A stretch of 64,000 bases of DNA, taken from positions 1-64,000 of the forward strand of contig JAFGSB010000097.1 in assembly GCA_016934825.1 (NCBI GenBank). The letters run 5' to 3'. Source of the DNA: Candidatus Zhuqueibacterota bacterium (GTDB lineage: Bacteria; Zhuqueibacterota; Zhuqueibacteria; Residuimicrobiales; Krinioviventaceae). Below the pieces are notes generated by a model, which did not search any database, was not told the DNA's origin, and saw only the letters and a list, made by a program, of their open reading frames with translations. The position numbers and the translations under genes are program-made. Below are positions 5,724-31,328 of the stretch, in pieces. Every line of letters begins with the position of its first letter. Position 1 is the first letter of the stretch.

Positions 5724-7853
5724 ATGCCTTTATTCAGTTTAATAAATTTATTGGGTTTTGGATTCGGGACTGCGCTGGCAATCATTATATTCAGTTTAAC
5801 TTTAAAAAAGTCACCCAAGGAATATGATGATTATACTCTTGTCATATTATTAATCGCCTGCGCCTTTTGGTTTGGCGGCAATTTTTTTTCCCTGCTCCTG
5901 CATTTCCTTTTCGGTAATGTGTTATTGATTGAAAAGAACATTTTATTTTTTTCATACATTGGGATGGCCGTCATCCCATCCGCTCTTTTACACGCTCTTG
6001 CCGCGTTCTTTCATCGGGCGAAAATAAAGTCACGGTCTTTGTTACTTCATGCATTATTTATTGGATTAATTTATTTACCGTTTGTCGTTTTTTTATATGC
6101 GGGTATGAGTTATAATATCCGGCTTAATTCTCTTCATATTGTTATCACCGAATCATTTAAACTGGCTTTTTATATATGGATGCTGCTGGCAATCGGGTTT
6201 TCCATTATTATATCTGAAAATCTGGCCCGTACACATGAAATTGAGGCGGACCGCCACTTTTACCGGGATATTAGCATTTCTCTTGCCATTATCTGGATGG
6301 GTATCATTATTATTTATATTATCCCTTCCTATAAATTATCCTATGTCGGCAGATATTTAAATTTGTTCATGCTGTTGTCCCCGGTTTTTCCACTGGGAAT
6401 TTTAGCTTATTATGTATACAGATATAATTTTTACCGGCTTGTTGTCAAACCAAGTCTTGTATATTCCGTTATTTACGGCACGCTAATGGCCGTATATCTG
6501 TTAGGGATCAGAAGACTGGGTGAATATTTGAAACAATTTCCGGATGTCAATTCAACGCTTATTGAGGGAATTCTGCTCATTGCGCTGGTTTTTGCTTTTC
6601 AGCCGTTTCGCGAAGCTTTTCAGACCCGACTGGACAAGATATTTTTCAGAGATCGATATTTCTATCAGCAGATATTACGAGAGCTGTCTGATACAATTAT
6701 CGGAACGGTTGATCTTGAAAAATTATTGAATACAATCAGCGAAGCTTTGACATCCGCGTTTAAAGTCAAGTCACTAACAATGGTTGTGTTTCAATTAAAT
6801 GCCAAAAAACCTGAAATCTATAGAACCGTCGGTCACCCGGAGTTTAAAGATTTTTTGTCGCTGATAAACGCTTTTTCCGCGACCCGTAAACTGCGGTTAC
6901 GTCAGCAAATAAAAAATCATCGGGTCATCGCGGCCCTCGCACAAAATAATCTCGAATTGGCCGTACCGATTTTTTACCGGAACAAAATGATGGGCCTGGT
7001 CTGCCTTTCAGAAAAACAAACCGGCAATGCTTATTCCGAAGATGAAATCGATATGCTGCAAACATTTTCCAACCAGATCGCGCTTGCAGTTGAAAATGCC
7101 CGCCTCGTACAGGAAAGATTGAATCTTGAAGCCCGTGTATACCAGTCGGAAAAATTAAATTCGCTGGGGCAAATGGCAACTACAATGTCACACGAGATCA
7201 AGAATCCTCTTTCGTCGATAAAAAGTATTATCCAGGTTTTGCGTGAAAAAGCGGCCGGCGAGGTAGCTAATGACCTGGATGTCGTTATTGTTGAAATTAA
7301 TCGATTAAATTCGATACTTGAAAAGTTGTTAAGTTTTGCCCGGCCTTCGGAAGGTAGGATCGAATCCGTATCGATCCCGGAAATTATAAAAGACGTCATC
7401 GGGTTATTAAAATATCAGGCAAATAAATCGCAGATCAAGATAAATTATTCCGAACCCGGCATCAATGCGGTCATCAAAGCAAAGAAGCAATCCGTCCGCG
7501 AGATCATTTTCAATCTCGTTCTTAATGCCCTGCAATCCATAACAAATCACGGTGAAATAAATATATCCCTTGAAAATCAAAAGACCCCGGGCAAACTAAA
7601 AATGACGTCAAGGCGTATTGATTTCTACAGGGTAAAAAACTGGTATATTCTGACTGTAAAGGATAACGGACCGGGAATATCCGCTGAGAATCTGAATTAT
7701 ATATTTGATCCTTTCTTTACAACCAAAACGGTCGGAACCGGTTTGGGATTGTCAATTGTCAAACAGAATGTAGAAGAAGCCGGCGGCTTTATAAATATAA
7801 AAAGTGAGTTGAACAAGGGCACGGAATTTTCCGTTTACTTTCCAAATTATTGA
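5724..7853 (+). CDS. Membrane histidine kinase, 7-8 TM + GAF + HisKA/HATPase (PrsK-like layout)
   Basis: A 709-residue sensor kinase. Residues 1 to about 295 hold seven or eight membrane helices. About 315-460 is a GAF domain, then comes a HisKA dimerisation helix with phospho-acceptor His490 (SHEIKNP), and an NtrB-type ATPase with N box (NLVLNALQS), G1 (DNGPGI), F (FDPFFTTK) and G2 (GTGLGLSIV). All motifs look intact. It presumably senses a membrane or cytosolic signal and phosphorylates the response regulator encoded 10 bp downstream. The size and multi-TM/GAF arrangement resemble PrsK, the kinase tied to XrtA/EPS loci, but that is architectural similarity only. Confidence 0.9.
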   Translation: MPLFSLINLLGFGFGTALAIIIFSLTLKKSPKEYDDYTLVILLIACAFWFGGNFFSLLLHFLFGNVLLIEKNILFFSYIGMAVIPSALLHALAAFFHRAKIKSRSLLLHALFIGLIYLPFVVFLYAGMSYNIRLNSLHIVITESFKLAFYIWMLLAIGFSIIISENLARTHEIEADRHFYRDISISLAIIWMGIIIIYIIPSYKLSYVGRYLNLFMLLSPVFPLGILAYYVYRYNFYRLVVKPSLVYSVIYGTLMAVYLLGIRRLGEYLKQFPDVNSTLIEGILLIALVFAFQPFREAFQTRLDKIFFRDRYFYQQILRELSDTIIGTVDLEKLLNTISEALTSAFKVKSLTMVVFQLNAKKPEIYRTVGHPEFKDFLSLINAFSATRKLRLRQQIKNHRVIAALAQNNLELAVPIFYRNKMMGLVCLSEKQTGNAYSEDEIDMLQTFSNQIALAVENARLVQERLNLEARVYQSEKLNSLGQMATTMSHEIKNPLSSIKSIIQVLREKAAGEVANDLDVVIVEINRLNSILEKLLSFARPSEGRIESVSIPEIIKDVIGLLKYQANKSQIKINYSEPGINAVIKAKKQSVREIIFNLVLNALQSITNHGEINISLENQKTPGKLKMTSRRIDFYRVKNWYILTVKDNGPGISAENLNYIFDPFFTTKTVGTGLGLSIVKQNVEEAGGFINIKSELNKGTEFSVYFPNY

Positions 7854-7863
7854 ATAATCAGGT

Positions 7864-9279
7864 ATGAAAAACGAATCCAAAGCAAAAATATTAATCGTTG
7901 ATGATGAAAAAGCCGCCCGTTACGGCATAAAAAAAGCATTGTCAAAATCCAGGTATGTAATTGAAGAAGCGGAAAACGGGCGGATCGCGCTGGAAAAGAT
8001 TGGGAAGTTTAATCCAGATGTGATTCTCTGTGATATATATATGCCGGAAATGGACGGCCTGGAACTGGTTCGACATTTACAGAATACGGACAAGGAGAAA
8101 GCACTTTTACCACTGGTTATTGTGCTGACCGCTTTCGGCTCCGAAAAGATAGCCGTGGAAGCCATGAAAGCCGGCGCCTATGATTATTTGTCCAAACCCT
8201 TTGATATTGATGAGCTTCGTTTAATGGTCAACAAGGCCCTTGAAAAGATCAAACTGGGCCGGGAAAATATCCTGCTGCGGCAGCAATTGGGAGAACAAAC
8301 CAGGGGTGAAATCATCGGTAACAGCCCCCAAATAAACCAGGTAGTCAAAATGATTGAAAAAGTGGCCCGGGCGGATGTTACATTACTGTTAACGGGAGAA
8401 AGCGGAACAGGTAAGGAACTCGTCGCGAGAACGGTACATACAAATAGTCCCAGGGCGTCCGGCCCGTTTATTACGATGAATTGTGCCGCGATTCCCAAAG
8501 ACCTGGTTGAAAGCGAATTGTTTGGTCATGAAAAAGGCGCTTTTACCGGCGCCGTGCAGCAAAGGCAGGGTAAGTTTGAAGTTGCAAACAGCGGGACACT
8601 TTTCTTGGACGAGATCGCCGATATGAGTCTTGAGACTCAGGCTAAAATATTGAGAATTCTTGAAGAAAAATCTTTCACCAGGCTGGGCGGTAAGGAGTTG
8701 ATCAGCACCGATGTAAGGTTAATCAGCGCGACGAATAAAGACCTGAAATCGGAAATCGAACAGGGACGATTCAGAGAGGACCTGTATTACCGGATCAAAG
8801 TCGTTGAAATTCATCTTCCCGCTCTCAGGGAACGAAAGTCGGACATCATGTTGTTGGCAGTGCATTTTTTACAAAAGTACGCGGACAAACATGATAAAAA
8901 TGTAAAAAATATTGAGACTGCGGCATTGCAGGCCCTTTACAACCATGATTGGCCGGGTAACGTCAGGCAGCTTATGCATGTTATTGAACAAAGTGTCGTA
9001 CTGACAGATAAAAACGTCATTACTGTGGAATCACTGCCGCATGAAATTACATTAGGATCAAATCCTCAAAATTTTGCAGAGCTGACCGGCGAAATGTCCT
9101 TTTCGGCTGCAAAAGACAAAGCCGTAAAAGAATTTGAAAACAATATTATAGATCAGGCTTTGAAATCGACAGGGGGGAATATCAGCAAAGCGGCACGCAA
9201 GTTGAAAATGAAAAGACAGTTTTTACAGCAAAAAATTAAAAACCTGGGACTGGATATCAATAAATATAAAACATCCTGA
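7864..9279 (+). CDS. NtrC-family sigma54-dependent response regulator
   Basis: A 471-residue regulator with three domains. The receiver (1-125) has phospho-acceptor Asp57 (CDIYMPEMDG) and the DD pair at 13-14. The AAA+ activator domain (about 145-380) has Walker A GESGTGKE (178-185), the sigma54-contacting GAFTGA loop and Walker B LFLDEIADM. The C-terminal Fis-type helix-turn-helix (about 430-468) follows. With GAFTGA intact it should drive transcription from sigma54 promoters after phosphorylation by the upstream kinase. Two strong sigma54-type promoters are present at 39228 and 55809 in the EPS region, which makes EPS genes plausible targets. The gene ends at a shared bidirectional terminator. 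Confidence 0.95.
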   Translation: MKNESKAKILIVDDEKAARYGIKKALSKSRYVIEEAENGRIALEKIGKFNPDVILCDIYMPEMDGLELVRHLQNTDKEKALLPLVIVLTAFGSEKIAVEAMKAGAYDYLSKPFDIDELRLMVNKALEKIKLGRENILLRQQLGEQTRGEIIGNSPQINQVVKMIEKVARADVTLLLTGESGTGKELVARTVHTNSPRASGPFITMNCAAIPKDLVESELFGHEKGAFTGAVQQRQGKFEVANSGTLFLDEIADMSLETQAKILRILEEKSFTRLGGKELISTDVRLISATNKDLKSEIEQGRFREDLYYRIKVVEIHLPALRERKSDIMLLAVHFLQKYADKHDKNVKNIETAALQALYNHDWPGNVRQLMHVIEQSVVLTDKNVITVESLPHEITLGSNPQNFAELTGEMSFSAAKDKAVKEFENNIIDQALKSTGGNISKAARKLKMKRQFLQQKIKNLGLDINKYKTS

Positions 9280-9310
9280 CTGACCGGATGATAATATATA
9301 TAAATCAACA

Positions 9311-9344
9311 AAAAAAGCCCGCTGTATGCAGCGGGCTTTTTTTT
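9311..9344. terminator. Bidirectional intrinsic terminator
   Basis: An A run (9311-9316), the stem GCCCGCTG (9317-9324)/CAGCGGGC (9329-9336) and a T run (9337-9344) form a strong hairpin with a tetraloop. It works in both directions between the convergent regulator gene (+) and AgmX-like gene (-). The stop codon of the latter lies in the T run. Confidence 0.9.
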
Positions 9345-10725
9345 AACTCATTCTATTAAATACAAACGGCAGGTTTACCTGTATTGATCCCTGTTGAATG
9401 GGAGTGAATTTTAACCTGCGAAGAATATTAATAATGTCACGAATAAAATTTTGATTTTCAATATCAGATTCAACAACTTTGACATTCGAAACGTTTCCGT
9501 CGGCTTCGATGGTTACATCGACACTGATTTTGCCCCGTAAATTCGGATCTTCGCGCAGGTATTTATTATAGGTATACATGATCCGGCCCTGCTGGGAATT
9601 GATCACGGCCATAACGGATTCAGATGTCCGTTCCGCCCTGGCCTCCTGTGAGCCGCGCATCTGTTGAGGTTGTTGAATATTTACATTTCCCTTTTTCTGG
9701 AGTGATACTTTTTCCACACCTTCAACATCCGATAATAAATCATCAATTCCGCCGGACATACCAAAGGCAAGCAGGTCATCAAGACCGTTCCCCGCGCCCG
9801 ATCCGATACCGTTCCCGGAGCCGGTCCCGTTTTTACCGGTGCCCTTGGTTTTTATCAATTTTTGATTGCCGATCAACTCGTCTATTTCTTTTACAAGCCC
9901 CTGCTCTATTAAAAAGTCCGCTGTCGCACTTGCATTTTCCGAACTGCCGGTTCCGCCGATCAATCCGAGTAATCCTTTCGCGACAACCGGAGTTTCAGAG
10001 TCCCCGTCACCGGAACCGCCGACAGATGGTTTTGGTTTATTGGTTTTTGTCGTTCCTTCCGAAGATTCTTCTTCAGTACCGGCAGTACCTGTACCGGTAT
10101 TTGACACAAGATCGGAAGGCGGGGGAGGGGTGGGCTTTTTAATTAAAAATTTAGCGAACCGTTCCGGTACTTTTTCGATATCGGGTGGTTCGATGGGGGG
10201 CAGCTCAATTCCTTTCAACACAAAGCCCAGAACGATTTCCAAAGAAAAAAAGACTAGAAATAAAAATTTGAATAATAAATCCCTGGTAAATGATTTGGAA
10301 TAGGATTTGTTCCATTTATAACTTGGTAATCCTTTAAGGGGTTGTGGTTTGATACCGTCATAATCAAAATATATATCCGCATCGGCAACCCGAATGGAAC
10401 CGGACCGGCCATGGGTAAAATGTAAATTGTAAAAGCTGCCTTTTTTAGGTAAAAGATCATGTACAAATAAATCCCTGAAATTAAGATGCGAATCATTATA
10501 CTTAATTTCACCACCCATTTTGGGAGAAATGTTCAGCGTACAGGAATGTTTTTTACATTCAATAAGGGTATGTTTTTTGGGATAGGCGTCATCATATACA
10601 ACGATATCGTTATCAGGGCTTCTGCCAATTGTCAATTTTTCATTTGGCTTTATTATGATTTCATATACTTTACCGCCCTGTACAATTTTTGTTGTAAGTA
10701 ATGTTTGTTTATGTAAATTTGCCAT
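9343..10725 (-). CDS. FHA - transmembrane - AgmX/PglI (TonB-like) protein, GltG/NfsG-like
   Basis: A 460-residue bitopic inner-membrane protein. Residues 18-120 look like a cytosolic FHA phosphothreonine-binding domain (GRSPDND at 34-40, conserved His52 after the strand). One membrane helix lies at about 150-171, followed by a Pro-rich and then Gly/Ser-rich periplasmic linker. Residues 365-460 are an AgmX/PglI-type TonB-like domain (GRIMYTYNKYL to the VNLPFVFN end). This FHA-TM-linker-TonB order is the one described for GltG/NfsG of the Myxococcus gliding/sporulation machineries, where the TolQR-type motor drives such proteins. It is the last gene of the cluster, 51 bp after the TolR genes. 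Confidence 0.85.
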   Translation of the reverse strand: MANLHKQTLLTTKIVQGGKVYEIIIKPNEKLTIGRSPDNDIVVYDDAYPKKHTLIECKKHSCTLNISPKMGGEIKYNDSHLNFRDLFVHDLLPKKGSFYNLHFTHGRSGSIRVADADIYFDYDGIKPQPLKGLPSYKWNKSYSKSFTRDLLFKFLFLVFFSLEIVLGFVLKGIELPPIEPPDIEKVPERFAKFLIKKPTPPPPSDLVSNTGTGTAGTEEESSEGTTKTNKPKPSVGGSGDGDSETPVVAKGLLGLIGGTGSSENASATADFLIEQGLVKEIDELIGNQKLIKTKGTGKNGTGSGNGIGSGAGNGLDDLLAFGMSGGIDDLLSDVEGVEKVSLQKKGNVNIQQPQQMRGSQEARAERTSESVMAVINSQQGRIMYTYNKYLREDPNLRGKISVDVTIEADGNVSNVKVVESDIENQNFIRDIINILRRLKFTPIQQGSIQVNLPFVFNRMS

Positions 10726-10776
10726 TTATCATTTCAATCAAGTTAATTATTCAGCGTCATCGGTGGTTATTGCGAA

Positions 10777-11304
10777 TTATTCAATTTGAGAAACCGCTAA
10801 AAGCATATTATTATAACCGGTACTTCCGCAAGTCAGCATGATCTTTTTTAACAGATCAAAAGTAATATCCCTGTTGCCCTGAATGGTAATATTACCCTGA
10901 AAACCCTGCATATCATCAGATAATTCACCAATGCCTTCAGATATACTTCTGATTTTTCGTAATTCATTTTCGAGTGAATTGATGAGTAAATTTTCACTTG
11001 CCATTATATTTTCAATTTTGTCAATGGGCCTGCCATCAACTAAAATCCATTCCTGGGTGATAGCAATAATCGAAGTGACCTTGGGCTGCATTTGCGAAGT
11101 TGATTCCGGTAATTTAAGGTCTTTTGTAATCGTCATAATCTGGCCTTCGGCGCTGTAACTTTTTAATAAAAAGACCAGTAATATGGTAAACATGTCAATC
11201 ATTGATGTCAGTTTCAGACTAAAGGTACCCCGTTTTGTTCGTTTGGTACCCGTAGAATATGCTATTAATGTTTCATGATTTTCAATTTTCATAAGAGATC
11301 TCAT
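10777..11304 (-). CDS. ExbD/TolR-family motor subunit (canonical Asp)
   Basis: A 175-residue protein with a short basic cytosolic N-terminus, one membrane helix and a periplasmic domain. The helix carries the proton-carrying aspartate of the family: Asp37 in SMIDMFTILLVFLL. With the ExbB/TolQ protein of the same operon it should form a proton-driven motor. The start codon at 11304 directly follows the stop codon of the preceding TolR gene without any gap, which indicates coupled translation. The cluster has one TolQ and two TolR-type genes, as in the AglRQS motor of Myxococcus. The periplasmic part (about 60-175) has little recognisable similarity beyond the family. Confidence 0.88.
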   Translation of the reverse strand: MRSLMKIENHETLIAYSTGTKRTKRGTFSLKLTSMIDMFTILLVFLLKSYSAEGQIMTITKDLKLPESTSQMQPKVTSIIAITQEWILVDGRPIDKIENIMASENLLINSLENELRKIRSISEGIGELSDDMQGFQGNITIQGNRDITFDLLKKIMLTCGSTGYNNMLLAVSQIE

Positions 11305-11769
11305 TTATCCTGAAATTGATATATTGGGAAAACCGGATTCACGACATCTGTCCATAACACTAATTATAGTATGATATTTGATTGTACTAACCGGGGAAAT
11401 GATTATATCCTCGGATTCGGGATATTTTTCTTTTATTGTCGTGAGTTGATTTTTTAATCCGTTCCAGTCGTAATCATTTTGTTTGTCGAGTTTTGATAAT
11501 TTAATATCAGGACTTTTTAACTCAAAGCCTGTTTCATTAATGACTAAAATATTAATTACAGTACTTTTTTGTTTTTGAGCCTGAGCGGTTCTGCCGGCGC
11601 TGTCCAGGCTCGGCAGCGACAATTCCAGTACGGCAATGCGGACAAAAACAGCGGTGAGTAAAAGAAATGGGATCAGAATTAAAAAAATATTCATAACGGC
11701 CGTGAGATTCAATTCCGTCTCTTCGGCATGCCCCTTTAATCTCCGTCCCATTGATTGTTTAATATTCAT
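11305..11769 (-). CDS. ExbD/TolR-family motor subunit with Asn replacing the helix Asp
   Basis: A 154-residue protein with the ExbD/TolR topology: basic N-terminus, one membrane helix (about 21-42) and a periplasmic domain ending in an IIISPVSTIKYH-type segment common to ExbD. Aligning the helix (LTAVMNIFLILIPFLLL) with its neighbour and with ExbD/TolR puts Asn27 where the proton-channel aspartate normally sits. Such a subunit would be unable to carry protons itself and may be structural or set the stoichiometry in a mixed TolR pair. It lies 3 bp after the TolQ gene and directly abuts the second TolR gene. Confidence 0.85.
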   Translation of the reverse strand: MNIKQSMGRRLKGHAEETELNLTAVMNIFLILIPFLLLTAVFVRIAVLELSLPSLDSAGRTAQAQKQKSTVINILVINETGFELKSPDIKLSKLDKQNDYDWNGLKNQLTTIKEKYPESEDIIISPVSTIKYHTIISVMDRCRESGFPNISISG

Positions 11770-11772
11770 TCA

Positions 11773-12393
11773 TTACCTCGCAGCGGTCATATGTCTGTAA
11801 AGACGGGCCACATTTTCATTGATCTCATCAATAAGTTCATTGGTTTTTTCAGTAATGTATGTAAAACCCACAAGACAGGGAATCGCCACAATAATTCCGA
11901 ACGCAGTTGTATTCATAGCAATTGAAATACCTGACGTTAACAATGTCGCTTTTTCGGCGGCATCGGCATGGGCAACCGCGGCAAAAGATGAAATCAAACC
12001 AAAAATTGTTCCCAGCAATCCCAATAATGTGGCAACGTTGGCTATCATTGCCAGATAGTGGGTTCTTTTTTCCAGTTTGGGAATTTCTTTCATTGCGGTC
12101 AATTCCATAGCATTTTGAATACTTGCCGGGGAATTGCTTATTTCCTGTAAACCGGCTTTTGCGATGTTCGGCAGGGCGGCGTCTGAAATATTACAATAAT
12201 CGATAGCTCTGTTTATATTTCCGCTTCTTATCAGTTCGGCGATTTTATTTACAAATAATTCCGAATCAATCCTGTTTTTGAATTGAATGTATATAACTCT
12301 TTCAATAATTGTAACAATTCCGAGTATCAGGGCGAATAGAATGACAAACATGACCGGTCCGCCAGTTACAAAAAATCTGATAATACTATCCAA
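11773..12393 (-). CDS. MotA/TolQ/ExbB-family proton channel protein (AglR-like)
   Basis: A 206-residue protein with the TolQ/ExbB arrangement: one N-terminal membrane helix (about 10-32), a cytosolic segment, and two closely spaced helices (about 112-135 and 150-175) with family motifs (ATLLGLLGTIFGLISSF, then GISIAMNTTAFGIIVAIP). Length is normal for the family. It should form the channel pentamer around the two TolR-type subunits encoded directly downstream and use proton flow to drive the AgmX/TonB-like protein. A Shine-Dalgarno-like GGAGG (minus strand, near 12400) precedes the ATG. Confidence 0.92.
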   Translation of the reverse strand: MDSIIRFFVTGGPVMFVILFALILGIVTIIERVIYIQFKNRIDSELFVNKIAELIRSGNINRAIDYCNISDAALPNIAKAGLQEISNSPASIQNAMELTAMKEIPKLEKRTHYLAMIANVATLLGLLGTIFGLISSFAAVAHADAAEKATLLTSGISIAMNTTAFGIIVAIPCLVGFTYITEKTNELIDEINENVARLYRHMTAAR

Positions 12394-12473
12394 GGAAACC
12401 TCCTTAATCTGTTATAAATAAATTAACTGTAGTAAAGTTACAAAAAGTAGAAAAATTGTCACCATTACAAAGC

Positions 12474-12875
12474 TTACCACGGAATGTAATCTTTACGTTC
12501 TTTGTTGGCGGGCTCTGTAGAGGTATTTGTTTGGATTCGACCACGTTTTTCGACGGGACGGAAAATTTCGGTGAAAAAAGAATGCTCGATATGAATATCA
12601 TCAATATCGGGCGTTGACCCGGGCAGGAAAAATAAAGCCTGTGGTTTTTCTAACTGACCGTTGACTTCAATTTTATCAACAAAAAGTTTCACATCGGTGT
12701 CTTCCAATTCAGGTGATTCCTGTGTTTCTTTTTCCTGATTTTCTGTCTGAACCGTTTGTTCATCCTCAATTTTTTTATCTTGTTCGCCGGTCTCCTGGGA
12801 AAAAAGAGAGACGGTTATAAAAAAGAATATTATTATTAAACAAAAAATTACATATTTGTAATTACGAATAACCAT
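12474..12875 (-). CDS. Small exported acidic protein of the motor cluster, unknown function
   Basis: A 133-residue protein with an N-terminal hydrophobic signal or anchor (about 7-26), then about 40 residues rich in Glu, Gln and Thr that are surely disordered, then a more ordered C-terminal part (LFVDKIEVNGQL, FLPGSTPDIDD, ending KDYIPW). There is no Cys for lipidation. I do not recognise the family. Its position between the TPR giant (17 bp upstream) and the TolQ gene (80 bp downstream) suggests a periplasmic component of the same complex. It could be an adaptor whose C-terminal motif binds the TPR proteins or the TonB-like domain; this is inference only. Confidence 0.7.
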   Translation of the reverse strand: MVIRNYKYVIFCLIIIFFFITVSLFSQETGEQDKKIEDEQTVQTENQEKETQESPELEDTDVKLFVDKIEVNGQLEKPQALFFLPGSTPDIDDIHIEHSFFTEIFRPVEKRGRIQTNTSTEPANKERKDYIPW

Positions 12876-12892
12876 TTTGAATTACCTCAATT

Positions 12893-15799
12893 TTATCCTT
12901 TCGTTTCCTGAACAACATTGACTTTTTCAGTGTTGTTGGTATCAACTTTATTTATATTTTCTTCCGGGGTAAGGGCCTGAATTCTTTTTTTACTTTCATC
13001 TACCCAGGAATTTTCAATATTATTCGTGTTGGCCTGCTCAATATTGAGTTTGTATGTTTCCAATGCCTGTTCCTTGTAAGGCTGTGCTTTTTCTTTTAAT
13101 GCATTGACATATAAATTTAGTTGCTCTCCCTCCAGTTCATCCGGCGGGGGAGACTCGATAAATGCTCTAAAAAACTCTTCAAAAGCCATGCCAATCTTGT
13201 GAGTCGAGGCTGTACTCCAATCCGCAACCTGATAAACAAGGGCATTTTTGTATGCATTGAGAACTTTTTGAAAATTCGATACTTTTAGTTTCAGGTTAGT
13301 TTCGAGCGGTGGAACCAGTTCAATTTGCCGGTAATAATCGAAATAAATTTCACCCAGCATAAACTGAGCCTGAGCAACAAAATAAGTATCGAACATTTGT
13401 GATTCACTTAAAGCCTTATATTTTGCTATCATATTATCAAATGCGGTTGCCGAATTAATAAAGTCGTTCAGTTTGTAATACATATCCCCAATCTTGTACA
13501 TACATTCTAATAGTTCATCTCCGGCGTCCGGATACGTATCAACATATCTGCTATAGATGGATTTTGCGGTGCGCCAATCTTTGAGATTTTCATAACATAC
13601 GGCAGCGTTTCTCATGGCGTATCGTGCCTGATCCGAGTTCGGATAATTGTCCGCCAAATTTAAGAAATTGTTAGCGGCCAGGGTCCATTCACCGTTATTT
13701 TCCCGAAGTTCGGCCGCTTTATATAACGCCTCATCCGCATGTCCGGATTGGGGATTTATTTGATACAGTTTTTCCAGTGCCTGAGCGGCTTTAGTCGTTT
13801 CTTCTGCCTGCTGGTATTGTGTTGCGGATTCAAACAGCGCTCTTTCCTGTATTTGCGGATCAACAGAATTATTGACTATTGAGTTTAAAAGTTCGGCTGC
13901 CTCTAACGATTTTTCTTCCTGACTGAGCTGTTCTGCAATTTTGAATTTTGAAGAAGAGGAAAGCATTTGCGCCTTTTTAATAAAACGTGAAGAGTCTGGA
14001 TAACTTTTCACGATTTTGCTAAACCATATATCCGCTTCATGAAAGAGTTCGGCATCAAAATAACATTGACCGGCATTCATAGCTGCCAGCAAATGATAGG
14101 GCCTGTCCAATCCCAGATCGATCACCAGTTTATATACCTCTACAGCCGGTAAAAAAAATTTCAATTCATGAAGAACTTCTCCATATTTCAAATATACCTG
14201 GTCAAGCCATTTACTTTTGGGAAATGTCAGAGAAAAATCATTACATGCAATCAGAAAATTGTATTGGGCAGGATGTTGTACTTTGATTGTCAGAGTATCA
14301 CCCGTACCCAGAAAATTGGGAATCTCGTAGGCGTCTTCAAGCAGCAGTTCCGGATTATTGAGTAACTGGTAATTACATAATACACGGTTATACGCCGCTT
14401 CTTCCCGGTATTCAGATTTGGATAAGGAATCTTTTTTAACAACATTATAATAAGTTTCCGCGGCTTTTTCAAAGTCTTCTATATCATAATAACATTCAGC
14501 AAGATAATACAAAATTTTTATTGATTCATCCGTATCCGGGAATTTTTTTAGATAGTCCTGATATCGGCCGATAGCCTTTTGGTAGTCTTCCTTGTTTGCT
14601 GACTGTTGAGCTTCAGCCTGGTAAAAAGTGCCGAGATAAACAAGCGATTTTTTGGAAATATCAATTCCGGCATCCTTGACTTCCGCGTCCATATTTTTTG
14701 ATAACCATTCACTGCCGGGACCAAGTTTATTCACCAGTTCGTCACGAATCTTATTTGCGCCTTCCAAATCTTCACTTAATTCATAATTATCAATGATTTT
14801 TTGATAAATATCAGGAGCATTTTTATAATACGGGTATATATCCAGAATGACTTTATAGGTGTTTATGGCTTCCGTAAAATAATCCCTTTTTTTGTATAGC
14901 TCACACATGGAAAGAAGTATGGGAAGAGTATAATCTTTTTCCTTGTATTGTAACAGAAATTCCTTTGCTTTGTCCGGTCCGCCATATTCGGTAAAACAAC
15001 TGGCGATGTATTGAATTGATTCGGAACGAAGATCTGCTTTGGTTCTGCTCAGAACCTGGGTTTTAACTTTATCAAGTAATGATATGTCTTCTATTAAATA
15101 AAGAAAGGTACTGATGGCGTTGCTATAGTTGCTCATATTATAATAAGACCAACCCAGCTTGTACAGCGACATATCAAAATATGGATTATCCCAGTTACCC
15201 AGTAATTTTTCGTAATGAAGGATGGCATTTTGATTATCGCGTTTTTCAAAATAATATTCTCCGATACGGAAGTGAGATTCAAGTACAATACTTGATTCGG
15301 GGAAATTATTCACGATGCTTTCAAAATAATTTTTAGCCTTTAGCTTGTCTCCGGTTTGCAGATAAGAAATACCGATTTTATACAATATTTTATCTTTGAA
15401 TTTTGAATTTGGAAATTCAACCAGTAATTTATTACAATAGTTGAGAGTATTACTCACATCAATTTTCGGCAATACCGGTTCGACAGCGAGTACACCTTCA
15501 TCATATTTTTTAATATTTTCTTCATAAAGCCGCATATCCTGCTGATAAACAAGATTGGACCGCTGCGCGTATAATTCCGCCAGTTGGAACATTATGGTTG
15601 ATGCAAAGGGTCCTTTCGGATATTTTTGCAGGAGAGCTTTATGTTCATTAATAATGGTATCTAATTTATTTAAATCTTCCCCGGTCTCATTTATTACTGC
15701 GGTAACAAAGGCGCTTTCCTGTGCATTAATTCCTGAAATCAGCCCGACAAATAAAAGTACGAAAATAATAATAATTTTATTTTTAAATTGAATATTCAT
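12893..15799 (-). CDS. Large exported TPR-repeat protein (968 aa), GltD/CpoB-like
   Basis: A 968-residue protein with a signal peptide (about 1-26, ending INAQES) followed almost to the end by tetratricopeptide/BamD-type helical repeats. Recurrent cores such as LYKLGWSYY, LYYLAECYYD and ALYKAAELREN are visible. The last 40 residues are polar. It is expected in the periplasm or on the inner face of the outer membrane as a scaffold. In the Glt machinery a giant periplasmic TPR protein (GltD/AgmU) and a smaller one (GltE) play this role, and here too a smaller TPR gene lies 10 bp upstream. Homology to those exact proteins cannot be shown by eye because TPR repeats are promiscuous. Confidence 0.85.
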   Translation of the reverse strand: MNIQFKNKIIIIFVLLFVGLISGINAQESAFVTAVINETGEDLNKLDTIINEHKALLQKYPKGPFASTIMFQLAELYAQRSNLVYQQDMRLYEENIKKYDEGVLAVEPVLPKIDVSNTLNYCNKLLVEFPNSKFKDKILYKIGISYLQTGDKLKAKNYFESIVNNFPESSIVLESHFRIGEYYFEKRDNQNAILHYEKLLGNWDNPYFDMSLYKLGWSYYNMSNYSNAISTFLYLIEDISLLDKVKTQVLSRTKADLRSESIQYIASCFTEYGGPDKAKEFLLQYKEKDYTLPILLSMCELYKKRDYFTEAINTYKVILDIYPYYKNAPDIYQKIIDNYELSEDLEGANKIRDELVNKLGPGSEWLSKNMDAEVKDAGIDISKKSLVYLGTFYQAEAQQSANKEDYQKAIGRYQDYLKKFPDTDESIKILYYLAECYYDIEDFEKAAETYYNVVKKDSLSKSEYREEAAYNRVLCNYQLLNNPELLLEDAYEIPNFLGTGDTLTIKVQHPAQYNFLIACNDFSLTFPKSKWLDQVYLKYGEVLHELKFFLPAVEVYKLVIDLGLDRPYHLLAAMNAGQCYFDAELFHEADIWFSKIVKSYPDSSRFIKKAQMLSSSSKFKIAEQLSQEEKSLEAAELLNSIVNNSVDPQIQERALFESATQYQQAEETTKAAQALEKLYQINPQSGHADEALYKAAELRENNGEWTLAANNFLNLADNYPNSDQARYAMRNAAVCYENLKDWRTAKSIYSRYVDTYPDAGDELLECMYKIGDMYYKLNDFINSATAFDNMIAKYKALSESQMFDTYFVAQAQFMLGEIYFDYYRQIELVPPLETNLKLKVSNFQKVLNAYKNALVYQVADWSTASTHKIGMAFEEFFRAFIESPPPDELEGEQLNLYVNALKEKAQPYKEQALETYKLNIEQANTNNIENSWVDESKKRIQALTPEENINKVDTNNTEKVNVVQETKG

Positions 15800-15809
15800 A
15801 AAACAAAAA

Positions 15810-17225
15810 TTATCTGTTTGATGCAGTTCTCTTTAGAAACAGAGCTCTTGATTTCCCGTATTCCGCGAATGCCCGCCAATCCTGTCTGTTTTCCTTGGTT
15901 TGTATGGCCTGTTTCATATCATTCATATCAGCCAATAAATTTTGAAAAGTCTGGCGTTCCTGCTGAATTTGGGTTAAAAGATTGTTTCGCAGGAGATTAA
16001 TTTCCTGTTTCTCCTGTTGTAAATAGTCGGGCGTATCTATATTCGGGCTTAATTGAATCAGGTTTAACAGTTTTGTTTCTAAAACCAGTAAATCCAGTTT
16101 GATTTTTTCAATTCTCTTTTCCTGAACGGCAATGCTTTTTTCTACTTCTTCAACAATTAACGGCACAAGTTCTTTTTTAGGCAGCACGTTAACCAGATAC
16201 TCGTAAACCTTTAAAGCGTCATCGTATAAACCAAGTTTTAAATAGCAGCGTCCAAGCAGGAAAAATCCTTCCTGGGTATTATCGTCTTCATTGGGAAGAC
16301 TGACCAAATCGGTCAACGGAATAATCGCTCTTTCATAATCTTCAATTTTTGTGGCAGCCCACCCGGCCGATAAAAGCGCATCCTTGTAATTAACATGATT
16401 GGAAGATACGGATGTGAACTGACGGAGACCATGATCGTAGTAACCCAACTCATAATAGATATAACCCAGTGTGAGATGGGTTTCATCAACAATGTTGCGA
16501 ATTTCATCGTTTACTACAGGAACACGCAGAATTCCGTTTAATGTGTCCACAGCCTGCTGGACTTTTTTTAATCGCAAGTATGACATTGCGCATGTATACT
16601 GTCCGTATGCCCAGTATGGATTGGATTTATTGATTTTTGATAGAATCTCGATTGCCTTGTTATAATCATTGAGCTTATAATAACTCAAACCGGCGTAATA
16701 TTGTGAACAATCCAGTATTTCATCCCGAGGATTACCTCGTTCTATCACTTTATAATAATCAATACATTTTATGATATTTCCGTTATTATATTCTATCCGT
16801 TGTAATCCCAATATAGCGCGAGGTAATTGTGGACTGGAAATAAATTTTTTTACCAGATATTTAAATATTTTTTTTGAACCCTCATTCAGTCCAATTTCAT
16901 ATAGACAGTCGCCAAGCGTAAAAATGACTTCATCAATTTTCGAGTACTGAGGATTAAAGTCGAGCAAAATAATCAAGTTTCTGGCAGATTCCCAATAATT
17001 ACCATTATTAAATAATTTGTTCGCTTCAGCAAAAAGTTTTGAGGACGCTTTTTCAAGTTCTTCCAGTTGGATCAGATTTTTATTGTCGTTTCCCGAGTAA
17101 GATGATGTAGGTGTGTTTGCTAATAATTGGGAGGGGAAAATATATAACATCAATAATATCAGTGTTAAATATTTTCGAATAATTTTCAAAATTGTTTCAT
17201 TTACATATGTAAACATATCACTCAT
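15810..17225 (-). CDS. Exported TPR-repeat protein with C-terminal coiled coil (471 aa)
   Basis: A 471-residue protein with a hydrophobic segment at about 17-37 acting as signal sequence or anchor (ending LLANTPTSS). TPR-type repeats fill about 50-345 (for example YAGLSYYKLNDYNKAIEIL and GFFLLGRCYLKLGLYDDAL), and a long charged coiled coil follows (about 355-450). The ATG at 17225 is preceded by only weak ribosome-binding signal, as for most genes here. It is the first of the two TPR genes (10-bp spacing) and likely part of the same envelope complex as the TolQR and AgmX-like proteins. Confidence 0.83.
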   Translation of the reverse strand: MSDMFTYVNETILKIIRKYLTLILLMLYIFPSQLLANTPTSSYSGNDNKNLIQLEELEKASSKLFAEANKLFNNGNYWESARNLIILLDFNPQYSKIDEVIFTLGDCLYEIGLNEGSKKIFKYLVKKFISSPQLPRAILGLQRIEYNNGNIIKCIDYYKVIERGNPRDEILDCSQYYAGLSYYKLNDYNKAIEILSKINKSNPYWAYGQYTCAMSYLRLKKVQQAVDTLNGILRVPVVNDEIRNIVDETHLTLGYIYYELGYYDHGLRQFTSVSSNHVNYKDALLSAGWAATKIEDYERAIIPLTDLVSLPNEDDNTQEGFFLLGRCYLKLGLYDDALKVYEYLVNVLPKKELVPLIVEEVEKSIAVQEKRIEKIKLDLLVLETKLLNLIQLSPNIDTPDYLQQEKQEINLLRNNLLTQIQQERQTFQNLLADMNDMKQAIQTKENRQDWRAFAEYGKSRALFLKRTASNR

Positions 17226-17358
17226 CCCGGCTGTAAAAACAACAATTAATTTAAATTGGAAACTGCAATTATAATTAACAGCAACAGATGTTAAATTAAT
17301 TTATTATATGACTTTATACTACCTGCAGTATAGTAAAATCACGTAAAAATACTTTATC

Positions 17359-18381
17359 TTAATCAGCCGTTGGCTTTTTTTCCTGTTCCAATTGTTTTCT
17401 TAAATCTTCTAAATCTTTGACAACTTTTTTTCTTTTTTCCTGGATTGTATCCAGATCTTTTTGTTCATCCAGTTTTCGTTTTTCTAATTCTCTCTCTTGT
17501 TTGGTTTTACCGGGAAATAAAGTTGTCCTGTATGATACACCAAATATAATTTTCCAATTCGCGTAATCCTTAATAAATTCTTTATTTACAGCAGTTAACG
17601 CGTTTTCGTCATAATTACTCAATTCTATATCACCGCATATGTCGCAAATTAAGTGCCATGGACCCACAAAACGGAATCCCTGAGTAAATCTAATATAGTT
17701 TTGGCTTAATTTGACATTTTCAAAATTATTAAAAAATACCTCACCTGTAACCTCGGAATACAACAGGTTTGATCGTACCGGGAATTTGAATCCCAGTCCG
17801 CCGAGCAGTTGATCTTTCGGATCGGTAAAAAAAGGATCGTTCCAGTTAATATCACGATAGCCCAAATTAAGTGACAGTTTTAGCGGCAGTGTACCGAAAA
17901 TATTTTTTAAATCAAATGTTGCCAGCCCCAGTAAACCCCAGCCAATCGCATCATCACTGTACGGTTCGAAAGCAACATTATGGTTTACAGCTGTTGGGAA
18001 ACTGAGGAATCCGACAAACCCGAATTGGGAAATTGCTCCGTAATTTGGGATGTGGTATTTAACGCTTAATCTCGTGTCTCCAATGGGACCCCATGTGTGT
18101 TTCTGATCATCCTGATATGGAACAAGATGTGTAAAAATTTCTAATTGTTCCGACAAACTCAGTGTTAAACCCAAATTAAGAGTATGGTCCTCATTAAAAT
18201 CGAAATTATCGCCGGCAGCGTATCCTGTATAAACCGGATTGATAGCCAAATATCCGGGATGTATTGTTTCGGCCTCAAGGATTCGAAACAGACCTTTGCT
18301 GCCATATAAGGATACTTGGGAAAAAGTAATTACTGGTATAAAGATAATTAAAACAACCAATATTGAATAATATTTTTTCAA
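17359..18381 (-). CDS. Outer-membrane beta-barrel-like protein with C-terminal coiled coil
   Basis: A 340-residue protein with a clear signal peptide (about 1-21, ending ITFSQ). About 260 residues of alternating amphipathic strands follow, rich in aromatic and Gly residues (for example LNLGLTLSLSEQLEIFTHL and LKLSLNLGYRDINW), as in outer-membrane barrels. The end is an unusual highly charged helical tail (about 290-340, Lys/Glu-rich) that would sit on the periplasmic side. Barrel proteins (GltA/B/H) are the outer-membrane part of the Glt complex. This gene lies upstream of the TPR genes with a 133-bp gap that could hold a separate promoter. Confidence 0.7.
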   Translation of the reverse strand: MKKYYSILVVLIIFIPVITFSQVSLYGSKGLFRILEAETIHPGYLAINPVYTGYAAGDNFDFNEDHTLNLGLTLSLSEQLEIFTHLVPYQDDQKHTWGPIGDTRLSVKYHIPNYGAISQFGFVGFLSFPTAVNHNVAFEPYSDDAIGWGLLGLATFDLKNIFGTLPLKLSLNLGYRDINWNDPFFTDPKDQLLGGLGFKFPVRSNLLYSEVTGEVFFNNFENVKLSQNYIRFTQGFRFVGPWHLICDICGDIELSNYDENALTAVNKEFIKDYANWKIIFGVSYRTTLFPGKTKQERELEKRKLDEQKDLDTIQEKRKKVVKDLEDLRKQLEQEKKPTAD

Positions 18382-18577: not shown

Positions 18578-20752
18578 CTATAGCATACCTTTCTTCTTCC
18601 GCAAAAACCATTCCAATGTTAGAGAAAAAATAACGCAAAATAAAATAATTCGGTTATTCCAGAACTCTACACTATTCGACATGTATGTTTCCCGCGGGTT
18701 TCCGCTTAACGTGTTTTCCAGAATAAACAGGGAATCTGAATCAATATATTTACCGCCGGTCGTTGAGGCTAATCCTTCCAATAACGCCTTTTGTAACCGA
18801 GTATTACTCAATTCCGAACTGTATTCACCTATACTAAAAAGTGTTTTATTTACTTCATCTGTATATAATGTTGTTTTTTCATTATTTAGATAAAGCTCAA
18901 AATCCCCGGATCGGTCCAGATAAATAATTTTTTCGTAACGATTTTCACCTGCTTTATTAACGATAATATTTTCTGTAACATGATTATGTTTGAGTGATAA
19001 AACAATTTCATTCCGGTTGTTCGGCAGGAAGGATTCATTTAATATTTCCACGCTGATTTTAACCGGCTCACCAAAATTATATTGCTGTTTATCGGTTTTA
19101 ATTTGTACAGGTTTGATTTCTTGTTTCGTTTCTAACCATCTTAACAGGTTATTTACAAAATTGTAATACACATCTTCATCATTATTTACGCCCCACATTA
19201 ACAGGTCCCATCTCCATATTCCATATGCGAAAACGGCCGCAGATTCTTGTTTCCCGGTGTTTCTTGTGACTATCAGCGGATTATTGTCTGTTAGCCCCTT
19301 TTGCGTAACAGCTGTTTTATAAAATGCCAGGACTTTAGTATTCGGCCATAATTGATTGATTTGGTGAGTGATATATACGGGAGGTAATTTTGACCATGCG
19401 GAAAGGGCTGTGTTATTTTGTGAAGATATATGCATCACCTGGTCATTTTTTCCCTCTTCTGATAATACAGGGAAAACAAGAATTTCTTTAATTTTATCAA
19501 TATTGGCTTTAAAGGGTAGATACTCATTAAACAAAGATAATTTTGGGGGGTGAACATTTTTCCCTAAAATGATAAATAACGGTATGGATTGGGTTTTCAC
19601 TTTATCCAGTAATCTATTCAATATCGATGGGGAGGTATGAACAGTGGGAAAGTTTAGTAATATAAACATATCTGCATTATCAATTTCATTTTCATTTTTC
19701 TGATAAAAACCGTTCCCGGATTTTTCTATGAATGTATTTACAATATAACGATCCGAGGACCCGATGTGTCGTTTTAAAAATGAAATATCAGGTGACAATC
19801 CGCCGGAAAATAATAACACATTAAGCTTGGCCTTAAAAACATCGATATAAATTGTTCTGAAATTATTTTTTATCGACAACTCATCCGCTTGTGACGGAAA
19901 GCTCAACACAAGTTTATTGTTGCCGGGTATTTCGGGCAGATAATCTATTGTCTCTTTAATCTCGGAAGGGGAAGGCGGCAAATTTATCATCTTGGTTAAT
20001 TTCTTCTCGCCATTAACGGTTAGCGTCAGTGGAAGATTAATGTTACGGTAGCCCATATTCCGTATGGTGACATGAACAGGTGTGGATTCATTTATATAGG
20101 CATAAGGATTATATTCGATACCCGCTATGGCAATATCCGGTACAGGTTCAGGGGAGCCAATTCCTATCGGATAAACCGGCACTCCCAATTCTTCCGCAAA
20201 CCGGATCGGATTGCCGCCTTTATTATAATTTCCATCAGATAATAAAATGATACCGGCTAAATTTTTTTCTGCCAGGTCATTTTTAATATATTGCAGACTG
20301 TTCGTAATATTTGTAACATCACCGGTGAATGATAATGAATCGTCTATATTTGCCGGGTTGACATTGTTGGCAAATGTATAGTATTTAAAAACGAATTGAT
20401 TTTGCAGGGTGAAAAAAACCGGGTCGTTGATTACTGCGGATAGCACCTGCGGTCTGTTTCCCGCTTTATCTTTTACGGCCATACTTGCCGAATGATCAAT
20501 ACCTACAGCGATATGAGGCGGTGTTTTAAAGCTGCTGATAAAATTGAAGGTCAATTCGAATAAAATAAACAGCATTAGAATAAGGACCAGTGAACGGAGA
20601 ACGATTAATATTTTTTTCAGAAAGGAGGGTATAAGCGGAATTGTTTTTCGATAAATAAAAACTGTAAACAGAAAAAATACAATTCCGACAAGAATCAGAA
20701 ATAATAAATTATACTTATGTGTAATATTGAATTGTGAAATAAGAAGCATCAT
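18578..20752 (-). CDS. Membrane protein with von Willebrand factor A domain (724 aa)
   Basis: A 724-residue protein. It has two N-terminal membrane helices (about 14-34 and 46-66), a VWA domain (about 80-205) with a complete metal-binding MIDAS start (DHSAS at 85-89, later LLSDGN), a long periplasmic part with immunoglobulin-like and amidotransferase-like segments, and one C-terminal membrane helix followed by RKKKGML. This layout matches large uncharacterised VWA membrane proteins of FCB bacteria. It lies 26 bp after tsaD, so it may be co-transcribed with it, and precedes the barrel/TPR/TolQR genes. Whether it belongs to that machine is open. Confidence 0.8.
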   Translation of the reverse strand: MMLLISQFNITHKYNLLFLILVGIVFFLFTVFIYRKTIPLIPSFLKKILIVLRSLVLILMLFILFELTFNFISSFKTPPHIAVGIDHSASMAVKDKAGNRPQVLSAVINDPVFFTLQNQFVFKYYTFANNVNPANIDDSLSFTGDVTNITNSLQYIKNDLAEKNLAGIILLSDGNYNKGGNPIRFAEELGVPVYPIGIGSPEPVPDIAIAGIEYNPYAYINESTPVHVTIRNMGYRNINLPLTLTVNGEKKLTKMINLPPSPSEIKETIDYLPEIPGNNKLVLSFPSQADELSIKNNFRTIYIDVFKAKLNVLLFSGGLSPDISFLKRHIGSSDRYIVNTFIEKSGNGFYQKNENEIDNADMFILLNFPTVHTSPSILNRLLDKVKTQSIPLFIILGKNVHPPKLSLFNEYLPFKANIDKIKEILVFPVLSEEGKNDQVMHISSQNNTALSAWSKLPPVYITHQINQLWPNTKVLAFYKTAVTQKGLTDNNPLIVTRNTGKQESAAVFAYGIWRWDLLMWGVNNDEDVYYNFVNNLLRWLETKQEIKPVQIKTDKQQYNFGEPVKISVEILNESFLPNNRNEIVLSLKHNHVTENIIVNKAGENRYEKIIYLDRSGDFELYLNNEKTTLYTDEVNKTLFSIGEYSSELSNTRLQKALLEGLASTTGGKYIDSDSLFILENTLSGNPRETYMSNSVEFWNNRIILFCVIFSLTLEWFLRKKKGML

Positions 20753-29205: not shown

Positions 29206-30006
29206 ATGAAAAAAATTTTTTTTATTTCTGATGCTCATTTCGGCGCCCAAAGTACGGAGAAGGAAGAGGAGAAAGCGCTTCAATTTTATTCTTTTTTAGA
29301 ATATTTTGAGTCGCAGGATGCCGTATTGATTATAGTCGGTGATCTGTTTGATTTCTGGTTCGAGTACCGATATGCTGTGCCGCGTCGACATTTTCGTATT
29401 ATTTCATTGTTGACACATCTTTGTTATCAGGGGAAAGAAATTCATTACATGGCCGGGAATCATGATTTCTGGCTTGGATCTTTTATGAAAAAACAAGTGG
29501 GTCTGAAATTACATCCAGATGAATATATTATGAGCCATGATAATAAAAATATCTATATTAAACATGGTGATGGTTTATTGAGAAATGATTACTCTTATCG
29601 ATTGTTGAAACGTGTACTGCGAAATCCCGTCAATATATTTTTATACCGGCTGTTGCATCCTGATTTTGGAATTCCGCTGGCTTTGTTTTTTTCACATCTG
29701 AGCAGGGAGGCATCCAAAGACCGTTCGAATTATTCTGATAGTGACTACAGAAAATTTGCCTATTCCAAAATTTCAGAGGGCTTTGATATTGTGGTTTTGG
29801 GCCATACTCATTGGCCGGCTCTTGAAAAATATCAAAACGGTTGGTATATAAATCCCGGCAACTGGATGGATGATTTTACATACGCCGTTATTCATAATGG
29901 CGTACCCCGTGTGTTCAAGTGGCAAAAAGATAAAGGAGTGGAATTTGATATCCTGATGCCGCCCGGTAATGAATTAAGTGGTGAAAGCCAAAAAGGTGCC
30001 GTATAA
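29206..30006 (+). CDS. lpxH: UDP-2,3-diacylglucosamine hydrolase (lipid A synthesis)
   Basis: A calcineurin-like phosphoesterase that hydrolyses UDP-2,3-diacylglucosamine to lipid X. The five metal-binding motifs are visible in order: SDAHFG, GDLFDFWFEY, GNHDFW, KHGD and GHTHWP. The ATG at 29206 (266 aa) is preferred; an in-frame GTG nine bases earlier is possible. The 3' end overlaps mreC by 29 bp. Its presence implies an outer membrane with lipid A-type lipopolysaccharide. Confidence 0.9.
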   Translation: MKKIFFISDAHFGAQSTEKEEEKALQFYSFLEYFESQDAVLIIVGDLFDFWFEYRYAVPRRHFRIISLLTHLCYQGKEIHYMAGNHDFWLGSFMKKQVGLKLHPDEYIMSHDNKNIYIKHGDGLLRNDYSYRLLKRVLRNPVNIFLYRLLHPDFGIPLALFFSHLSREASKDRSNYSDSDYRKFAYSKISEGFDIVVLGHTHWPALEKYQNGWYINPGNWMDDFTYAVIHNGVPRVFKWQKDKGVEFDILMPPGNELSGESQKGAV

Positions 30007-30799
30007 AAAAACAAAAATAAAATGGGGGGATGTGATCATTCTGGTTATGACGGTTATCGCCTCATTTAGTCTGATTTTATTTGCCAATAAAGATGGGCGG
30101 AAGAGCGCCCTGCATACATGGACCCTGGATTTGGCCGGGAGACTTGTTTCTCCTGTTAATCGCTTTCATGAATTGCTCGATATACGCGATGAAAACAGCA
30201 GGCTAAAATTTCAGAATATAAAATTACAATTAGAAAATTCGATACTCAACGAAACAGATCAAGAGAACAAAAGATTACTTGCGTTGCTGGAGATAAGTGA
30301 ATCTTTAACGTATGAGAACATTGCGGCCCGGGTTGTTGGATTCGACGGAATGGACGGCGTAAAGTCCGTTATTCTGGATATCGGCAACAATCATGATCAT
30401 GATATTGTCGAGAATATGCCTTTTGTTGCTGAAAATGGTCTGGCCGGGAAAATTGGCAGGGTTTCGGGCAGCAAAGCGGTCGGGCAGGTTTTAACGGACA
30501 AAAATTTCCGTGTGGCGGCGCGTCTGCAAAACAGCCGTTATACGGGTCTTTTTGAAGGAACCGGAAAAGAGACCGGAATTATGTGGGGAGTTCCTCTGAA
30601 GGCAAAGATAACCATCGGTGAAGAGATTTTGACCTCGGGTATGAATTCTCTGTTCCCTGCCGGTTTGAAAATCGGACGTGTTGTGGATTTCAAAGATGAT
30701 CCCAATAGTTTGTTTCAGCTTTTAATTATTGAACCCGATGTGGAATATACAAGGCTGGAAGAAGTTTTAATTATTAAAAGTAAAGCGGCTGAAAAATGA
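29978..30799 (+). CDS. mreC: Rod shape-determining protein MreC
   Basis: A 273-residue bitopic protein with one membrane helix (about 19-36), a coiled coil (about 65-105, DENSRLKFQNIKLQ) and the beta-rich periplasmic domain (VVGFDGMDGVKSVILD, ENGLAGKIGRVS, LTSGMNSLFPAGLKIG). It organises the cell-wall elongation complex with MreD, PBP2 and RodA, all encoded next. The GTG start lies inside the end of lpxH. The usual upstream partner mreB is not here. Confidence 0.93.
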   Translation: MVKAKKVPYKKTKIKWGDVIILVMTVIASFSLILFANKDGRKSALHTWTLDLAGRLVSPVNRFHELLDIRDENSRLKFQNIKLQLENSILNETDQENKRLLALLEISESLTYENIAARVVGFDGMDGVKSVILDIGNNHDHDIVENMPFVAENGLAGKIGRVSGSKAVGQVLTDKNFRVAARLQNSRYTGLFEGTGKETGIMWGVPLKAKITIGEEILTSGMNSLFPAGLKIGRVVDFKDDPNSLFQLLIIEPDVEYTRLEEVLIIKSKAAEK

Positions 30800-31290
30800 A
30801 ACTTTTAATTTATTCAATATTATTGTTTATTTCGGTCTTACTTCAGGTATCGTTGATGAATTATATTGCCATCGGTGGTGTATCGCCGGATTTGAGTATT
30901 ATAATGATAGGATTTACGGCATTGGGTTTGGGACGGAATTATTCGACACTGCTGGGATTTTTAACCGGGTTTTTACGCGATTCTTTCGGATATAGTATTA
31001 TCGGTATGGGATCGCTTATATTTTCCATTTGCGGTTTTGCTGCCGGTACATTCATTCAGAAACGGTCTTTTTATAAATGGTACGAATTAGCAACCGTTTT
31101 TGCAATTTTAATATTCGTTTATTTTTTTTTAGATTACTTTCTGGTTAATTTTTCAGCGGAGACTTTTTGGAAAACAATTTTTGCAAATATTATTCCGCAA
31201 TTTTTATATACACTGTTTATTTTAATAGTTATGTTATTTGTTTTACCCAAAAAGATCTGGATCGGGAAAAAGGATAATATATTTGATTAA
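30796..31290 (+). CDS. mreD: Rod shape-determining protein MreD
   Basis: A 164-residue, strongly hydrophobic protein with five or six membrane helices and the MreD features YIAIGGVSPDLSII and FLTGFLRDSFGYSIIG. Its ATG overlaps the mreC stop codon (ATGA), a sign of translational coupling. It belongs to the elongasome. Confidence 0.9.
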   Translation: MKLLIYSILLFISVLLQVSLMNYIAIGGVSPDLSIIMIGFTALGLGRNYSTLLGFLTGFLRDSFGYSIIGMGSLIFSICGFAAGTFIQKRSFYKWYELATVFAILIFVYFFLDYFLVNFSAETFWKTIFANIIPQFLYTLFILIVMLFVLPKKIWIGKKDNIFD

Positions 31291-31328
31291 CAATATTTTT
31301 TCGGTATCATCAAAAACTTAATTGAACA

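Follow-up and report, generated by a model that had tools for sequence, protein, structure and literature searches.

The window analysed here is a stretch of 64,000 nucleotides (contig JAFGSB010000097.1) from a member of KSB1 (Zhuqueibacterota), an uncultured bacterial group. Its minus strand carries eight open reading frames between positions 9343 and 18381, in the tight one-strand order described in the original prediction, with gaps of 0-133 bp. Read from 18381 down to 9343, these encode an outer-membrane β-barrel (340 aa, 17359..18381), two exported TPR proteins (471 aa, 15810..17225, and 968 aa, 12893..15799), a small acidic exported protein (133 aa, 12474..12875), a TolQ/AglR-type motor subunit (206 aa, 11773..12393), two TolR proteins, here called TolR1 (154 aa, 11305..11769) and TolR2 (175 aa, 10777..11304), and a putative GltG-like force transducer (460 aa, 9343..10725). 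The unit is closed by an intrinsic terminator with a 15-pair stem and a T-tail (9310..9343, minus strand), directly after GltG, its last gene, and before a convergent response-regulator gene. A promoter scan was not informative (44 sites, against 35 in shuffled sequence). Domains were assigned by Pfam and NCBIfam profile searches.

The AlphaFold2 model of the 340-aa protein (pLDDT 80.8) has a signal-like N-terminus, 12 β-strands and a C-terminal helix of about 42 residues (H294-335), predicted to be periplasmic, and its PDB matches are outer-membrane barrels, for example FapF, porins and Tsx. Profile comparison with the myxobacterial barrels GltA and GltB, represented by only three reference sequences, gave a probability of 0.2%, and assignment to the GltA/B type was rejected. 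An ortholog of the barrel is present at full strength in most genomes of the class. It is worth adding that in one genome (G004; locus L050, 1-7967) it is absent upstream of the TPR gene, where there are unrelated genes, and that a genome-wide search there found only a weak match (2.8e-16).

In every locus that extends far enough, the 471-aa gene comes first among the TPR genes of the unit. Its protein, which has TPR hits in Pfam, matches the GltC profile at 2.6e-22; this is no better in kind than the 6.3e-18 of a control, for which a different TPR protein was used, and the GltC identity is accordingly given here as one of position rather than of profile. The 968-aa protein also has TPR hits, and it gave no match in a scan of viral contigs. 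An HMM built from its class members matches the protein at the GltD position of a glt cluster in Anaeromyxobacter at 8e-78, and, within that genome, a further large TPR protein at 7e-89. GltD identity was not accepted on HMM score alone, and since the score does not discriminate, the assignment as a GltD-like periplasmic scaffold is based on synteny. TPR proteins match one another easily, and both the GltC and the GltD assignments therefore rest partly on position. Outside the class, the relatives that match the 968-aa protein from end to end are located in core-complex operons. A second, orphan copy of this TPR protein is found in the KSB1 MAG Zod_Metabat.436 (L104, 4690-7647), on a contig that has no motor genes.

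The acidic 133-aa protein has a signal-like N-terminal segment and a C-terminal motif, VxGxxEKPQAxFxxPG...SFFxEIFRPVE, that is conserved in the class. Weak relatives are found at the equivalent place in Calditrichota, Nitrospirota and Anaeromyxobacter. Its similarity to proteins at the GltF position is weak (probability 39%), which is suggestive only, and the name GltF was not adopted.

For the 460-aa protein, Pfam identifies TonB_C and a borderline FHA domain (20.6 bits, against a cut-off of 20.7), and the NCBIfam model for the AgmX/PglI C-terminal domain (NF033768) matches at 79 bits, with a cut-off of 40. The predicted structure has an FHA-like sandwich (residues 9-123, 10357..10701), a single transmembrane helix (residues 150-171, 10213..10278), a disordered linker and a TonB-type C-terminal domain (residues 345-459, 9349..9693), all on the minus strand. 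The best PDB matches have E-values of only about 3e-3, the top ones being consistently FHA domains or TonB C-terminal domains. Taken together, NF033768, the structure prediction and the PDB matches bear out the earlier reading that FHA and AgmX/TonB domains are joined in one protein. The GltG equivalog model matches residues 28-458 (E 5.4e-24) with 84.7 bits; this is so far below the cut-off of 650 that the protein is a homologue of GltG and not an equivalog. The serine of the SxxH motif is the usual phospho-binding residue of FHA domains. In the FHA-like domain of GltG its place is taken by an invariant proline (residue 49), which makes it doubtful that this domain binds phospho-threonine.

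The three motor proteins have clear family matches, to MotA_ExbB for TolQ (7.6e-29) and to ExbD for TolR1 (2.1e-20) and TolR2 (2.5e-12). In a tree of TolQ proteins, the core complexes of KSB1, Calditrichota, Nitrospirota and Myxococcota form a single clade together with AglR (support 100/98), and the nine ordinary TolQ/ExbB proteins of KSB1 genomes included for comparison are placed apart. The reference for the glt genes was an Anaeromyxobacter cluster in which GltC and GltG exceed their NCBIfam cut-offs (713 and 782 bits); AglR, AglQ and AglS of Anaeromyxobacter are separate genes. The class model of TolQ matches Anaeromyxobacter AglR at 2e-67 and the KSB1 model of GltG matches its GltG at 3e-28; AglQ matches the TolR1 model only (5e-23), and AglS matches the TolR2 model best (2e-37). 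TolR1 is thus the counterpart of AglQ, and TolR2 that of AglS.

In TolR, ExbD and MotB proteins, a membrane aspartate carries the proton. TolR2 keeps this residue in 77 of 77 loci; in the window it is Asp37 (codon 11194..11196, minus strand), within the invariant motif LTSMIDMFTILL. At the equivalent place TolR1 has an asparagine, Asn27 (codon 11689..11691, minus strand), in a VMN motif that aligns with the Asp motif of AglQ and TolR. In the 57 class loci that have both genes, and in the 43 distinct sequences of the class, the residue is always asparagine; among core complexes from other phyla it is asparagine in 17 of 20. Both AglQ and AglS carry Asp in the one Anaeromyxobacter genome that was checked. 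Given the asparagine in TolR1 both across the class and in most of the core complexes from other phyla, the proton-binding Asp of AglQ would be a feature of the gliding-type AglRQS and not of the core complex at large. In Myxococcus, proton conductance is lost with the AglQ mutation D28N, which leaves the Glt and Nfs machines alike paralysed (PMC3858216). TolR1 naturally carries the residue that abolishes conductance in AglQ, and a TolR1 homodimer is therefore implausible as the axle of the motor. The Asp/Asn pattern suggests instead a heterodimeric TolR1/TolR2 axle with one proton site, with a TolR2 homodimer as axle, and TolR1 in another role, as an alternative that should be kept in mind. 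Whether AglQ and AglS form homodimers or a heterodimer is not known (PMC9389320), and the invariant asparagine in the KSB1 counterpart of AglQ turns this question into a direct experiment. More generally, a normal proton-binding part paired with one that has lost its proton-binding residue poses the question of how such motors work, which can be put to the test.

Among the relatives of the 968-aa protein, the best named ones are labelled candidate division KSB1, and some carry Calditrichota or other names. GltG was matched in all 60 class genomes searched, from 13 families, with an identity that falls with kinship (65% within the genus, about 30-40% over the class as a whole). None of the 53 distinct class loci is rearranged, and 33 have the complete eight-gene order; the others are mostly cut by contig ends, apart from four that have no motor genes and the one (G004) without the barrel ortholog. 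The relatives outside the class were fetched with the 968-aa protein alone, synteny not being required, and most of them are located in similar operons in Calditrichota, Nitrospirota and Myxococcota. In Calditrichota and Nitrospirota the order is TPR, TPR, small protein, TolQ, TolR, TolR, GltG, and Myxococcota add a third TPR gene. Conservation of gene order, proposed as a check in the original prediction, thus holds both across the class and in other phyla. Four MAGs titled Actinomycetota, Bacteroidetes and Caldisericaceae (L069, L099, L120 and L142) carry operons of KSB1 or Calditrichota type, and their titles therefore look misassigned.

The conserved flanks of the unit in relatives are tsaD (in part of KSB1), a vWA-like gene and a two-component system, and the Calditrichota copy lies between the atp (ATP synthase) operon and aspS. 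In the window, the gene upstream of the barrel (18578-20752, minus strand) encodes a 724-aa protein that was read as vWA-like from its sequence and has no significant Pfam hit; it has this position, beside tsaD, in the window's own order and in families f6 and f7, and was not seen there in f8-f13. On the other side, a sensor kinase and an NtrC-type regulator (5724-9279, plus strand) are convergent with the unit, and the same pair is found beside the unit in several relatives (L048, L050, L051, L053 and L054).

Several KSB1 genomes have a second core complex, of Calditrichota type (L196, 4397-11971; L201, 11-7427; L202, 4716-10978), no match to which was seen in the window's own genome. It contains a large TPR protein, TolQ, TolR1 with Asn, TolR2 with Asp and an AgmX protein that has no FHA domain, and its TolQ groups with Calditrichota in the tree. 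Another conserved KSB1 unit (L037, 7150-13774, minus strand; L197; L200) consists of a large TPR protein, a protein of 560-613 aa (with no Pfam hit in L037), TolQ, TolR and a TonB_C protein.

In the four distinct motorless loci (L044/L076, L045/L077 and L067/L071, all in family f2, and L096), the barrel, both TPR proteins, the acidic protein and GltG are all present, and there is no TolQ or TolR between the acidic protein and GltG. Searches of three whole genomes (G010, G014 and G018) found no match to TolR2, and in two more (G016 and G020) the only match lies in the second, Calditrichota-type unit. The GltG of the motorless loci has no FHA domain, and has a TonB-type membrane segment at its N-terminus; another f2 member (G021) has kept the FHA-type GltG. 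Over 60-100 residues, this N-terminus shares 39-56% identity (E down to 3e-20) with the f2 family's own TonB-type protein, which belongs to an ExbB-ExbD-ExbD-TonB cluster, and the window's own GltG has no such match to that protein. On these sequence comparisons, the simplest reading is that the machine of this subclade was rewired to an ordinary Ton motor, in other words that a motor swap took place, so that the motorless GltG and the TonB-type protein would share one motor. Such a swap is what a force transducer would allow, and it would amount to a naturally occurring domain exchange, in which the part that generates force is set apart from the outer-membrane half of the machine.

A relationship to the Agl-Glt and Nfs machines of Myxococcus was the central claim of the original prediction, and it stands, supported by a TolQ in the AglR clade, by the conserved gene order and by the FHA and AgmX/TonB domains of GltG. 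The same prediction set an ordinary TonB or Tol system with no FHA domain as the outcome that would speak against it. Such a system would explain the presence of TolQ, TolR and a TonB-type domain, and also the TonB-type membrane segment of the f2 transducer. However, the TolQ is in none of the branches of ordinary TolQ/ExbB proteins, Ton and Tol systems do not feature an FHA domain, the unit has no TolB, Pal or TonB-dependent receptor, and its barrel has 12 strands, where a TonB-dependent receptor is a 22-strand barrel with a plug. An ordinary TonB or Tol-Pal system is thus largely refuted, and we give it very little credence. Nor is the unit a strict replacement for Tol-Pal. TolB exceeds its equivalog cut-off in 17 of 59 genomes, which have it as well as the unit, and an either/or relationship was rejected; the corresponding figures are 2 of 22 in the window's own order and none in its own genome, where only partial propeller matches were found (best 97 bits, cut-off 343), all such absences being subject to genome completeness, MAG contamination and unequal sampling.

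The original prediction proposed surface motility or polysaccharide movement as the role of the unit, and favoured the second on account of an EPS region in the host. A gliding machine like Agl-Glt would account for the homologous motor and GltG, and yet nothing speaks for gliding specifically: the core complex is not sufficient by itself and is also present in bacteria for which no gliding is known (PMC3169522), the barrel has no match to GltA/B, presence throughout a class is odd for a motility trait, and a survey of KSB1 genomes that records flagella in two clades makes no mention of gliding (PMC9012183). We consider gliding improbable. A role like that of Nfs, in which the unit would work with the EPS export system to move or compact a polysaccharide at the surface, is somewhat less improbable, though still unlikely. 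It has a precedent in Agl-Nfs, by which the Exo polymer is transported at the surface of Myxococcus spores (PMC3858216), and EPS export (Poly_export) is found in 58 of 59 class genomes, so that nearly every carrier has a possible cargo; the one seeming exception that has the unit is 70% complete (G048). Export this close to universal does not discriminate, and its co-occurrence with the unit neither supports nor excludes a link to EPS. The proximity argument is weak: the EPS genes of the window are more than 20 kb away, on the other strand and beyond mreC-pbp2-rodA, the linkage is not conserved, the flanks that are conserved are those described above, and the barrel again has no match to the GltA/B type. 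The intervening genes (29978-34363, plus strand) are mreC, a PBP2-type transpeptidase and a rodA-type gene in a row, which make up a cell-shape cluster.

With the gene content and order, the predicted folds, the motor homology and the Asp/Asn pattern established, our preferred reading, to which we give a probability of about 0.6, is that the unit is a proton-driven trans-envelope force transducer, a KSB1 Agl/Glt core complex with a constitutive role in the envelope. The assembly of the complex, its stoichiometry, the direction of the force and the cellular role we infer as follows. A TolQ pentamer would surround a TolR axle and be driven by the proton-motive force, the axle being most likely a TolR1/TolR2 pair in which only TolR2 is able to bind a proton. 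The motor would act on the transmembrane helix of GltG, whose flexible linker and AgmX/TonB domain would span the periplasm and exert a pull on the exported complex formed by the two TPR proteins, the small acidic protein and the 12-strand outer-membrane barrel. The role would most likely be one of constitutive envelope upkeep, in which the outer membrane or a surface component is moved or held against the wall. Presence throughout the class, housekeeping neighbourhoods and occurrence with or without Tol-Pal make such a role likelier than gliding; a unit present in all MAGs of one class could also serve any other core trait, for example one linked to EPS export, and no surface adhesin or cargo was identified for it. 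A bolder proposal, which we hold tentatively and at slightly less than even odds, is that an obligate TolR1/TolR2 heterodimer with a single proton site (a "half-site" 5:2 motor) is the common state of the core complex, that gliding myxobacteria, whose AglRQS has two Asp residues, are exceptional in this, and that the machine can exchange its private motor for another: in one KSB1 family, a swap of the transducer's membrane segment would have rewired it to the ordinary Ton motor.

The original prediction also took the system to be undescribed. This was not the case, because the core complex is already known outside Myxococcota: Luciano et al. (2011) described gltD, gltE, gltG, gltC and aglRQS in one cluster and reported it from Geobacter, Beta- and Gammaproteobacteria and Fibrobacter (PMC3169522). 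Their argument was that the complex alone would be unlikely to power motility. An interaction between AglR and GltG has been shown in Myxococcus (PMC3169522, PMC3858216). The sequence evidence identifies the unit as the KSB1 form of this Agl/Glt core complex. What is new here is its conservation throughout a class, the TolR1 asparagine pattern, and the motor loss and apparent swap in a subclade. The 2011 work left the core complex without a function outside gliders, and no later answer was found in the literature searched. That the complex is close to universal in KSB1 suggests an older role, a general one in the envelope, from which gliding was derived.

Compared with known systems, the unit is closest to that core complex, sharing one TolQ with two TolRs of AglR/Q/S type, an FHA-TM-TonB GltG, large exported TPR proteins and the grouping of all these genes in a single cluster. 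It differs in having no third TPR gene, which myxobacterial core complexes do have: the small acidic protein follows GltD where a GltE-like TPR protein would be. It also holds a 12-strand barrel of its own, has Asn for the membrane Asp in TolR1 and an FHA domain that lacks the SxxH serine, and in one subclade has no motor genes. With the gliding machine of Myxococcus it shares the homologous motor, GltG and a GltD-like scaffold, but no barrels of GltA/B type were detected in the unit. The Nfs proteins of the Myxococcus spore-coat machine are paralogs of Glt powered by the same motor; unlike that machine, the KSB1 unit has no spore-coat or EPS locus linked to it on the chromosome, and it contains no barrel of NfsA/B type. 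The TolQ-TolR-TolR-TPR-vWA units of the PVC group (PMC12204202) similarly have one TolQ-like protein, paired unlike TolRs and a TPR gene, but there the transducer has a vWA domain, whereas the KSB1 transducer has FHA and AgmX/TonB domains and the vWA-like gene is only a neighbour. Finally, the unit resembles Tol-Pal in combining a PMF-driven TolQR with a TonB/TolA-type transducer acting on the outer membrane, and differs from it in having no TolB or Pal, in belonging to a different TolQ clade, and in being present with or without Tol-Pal.
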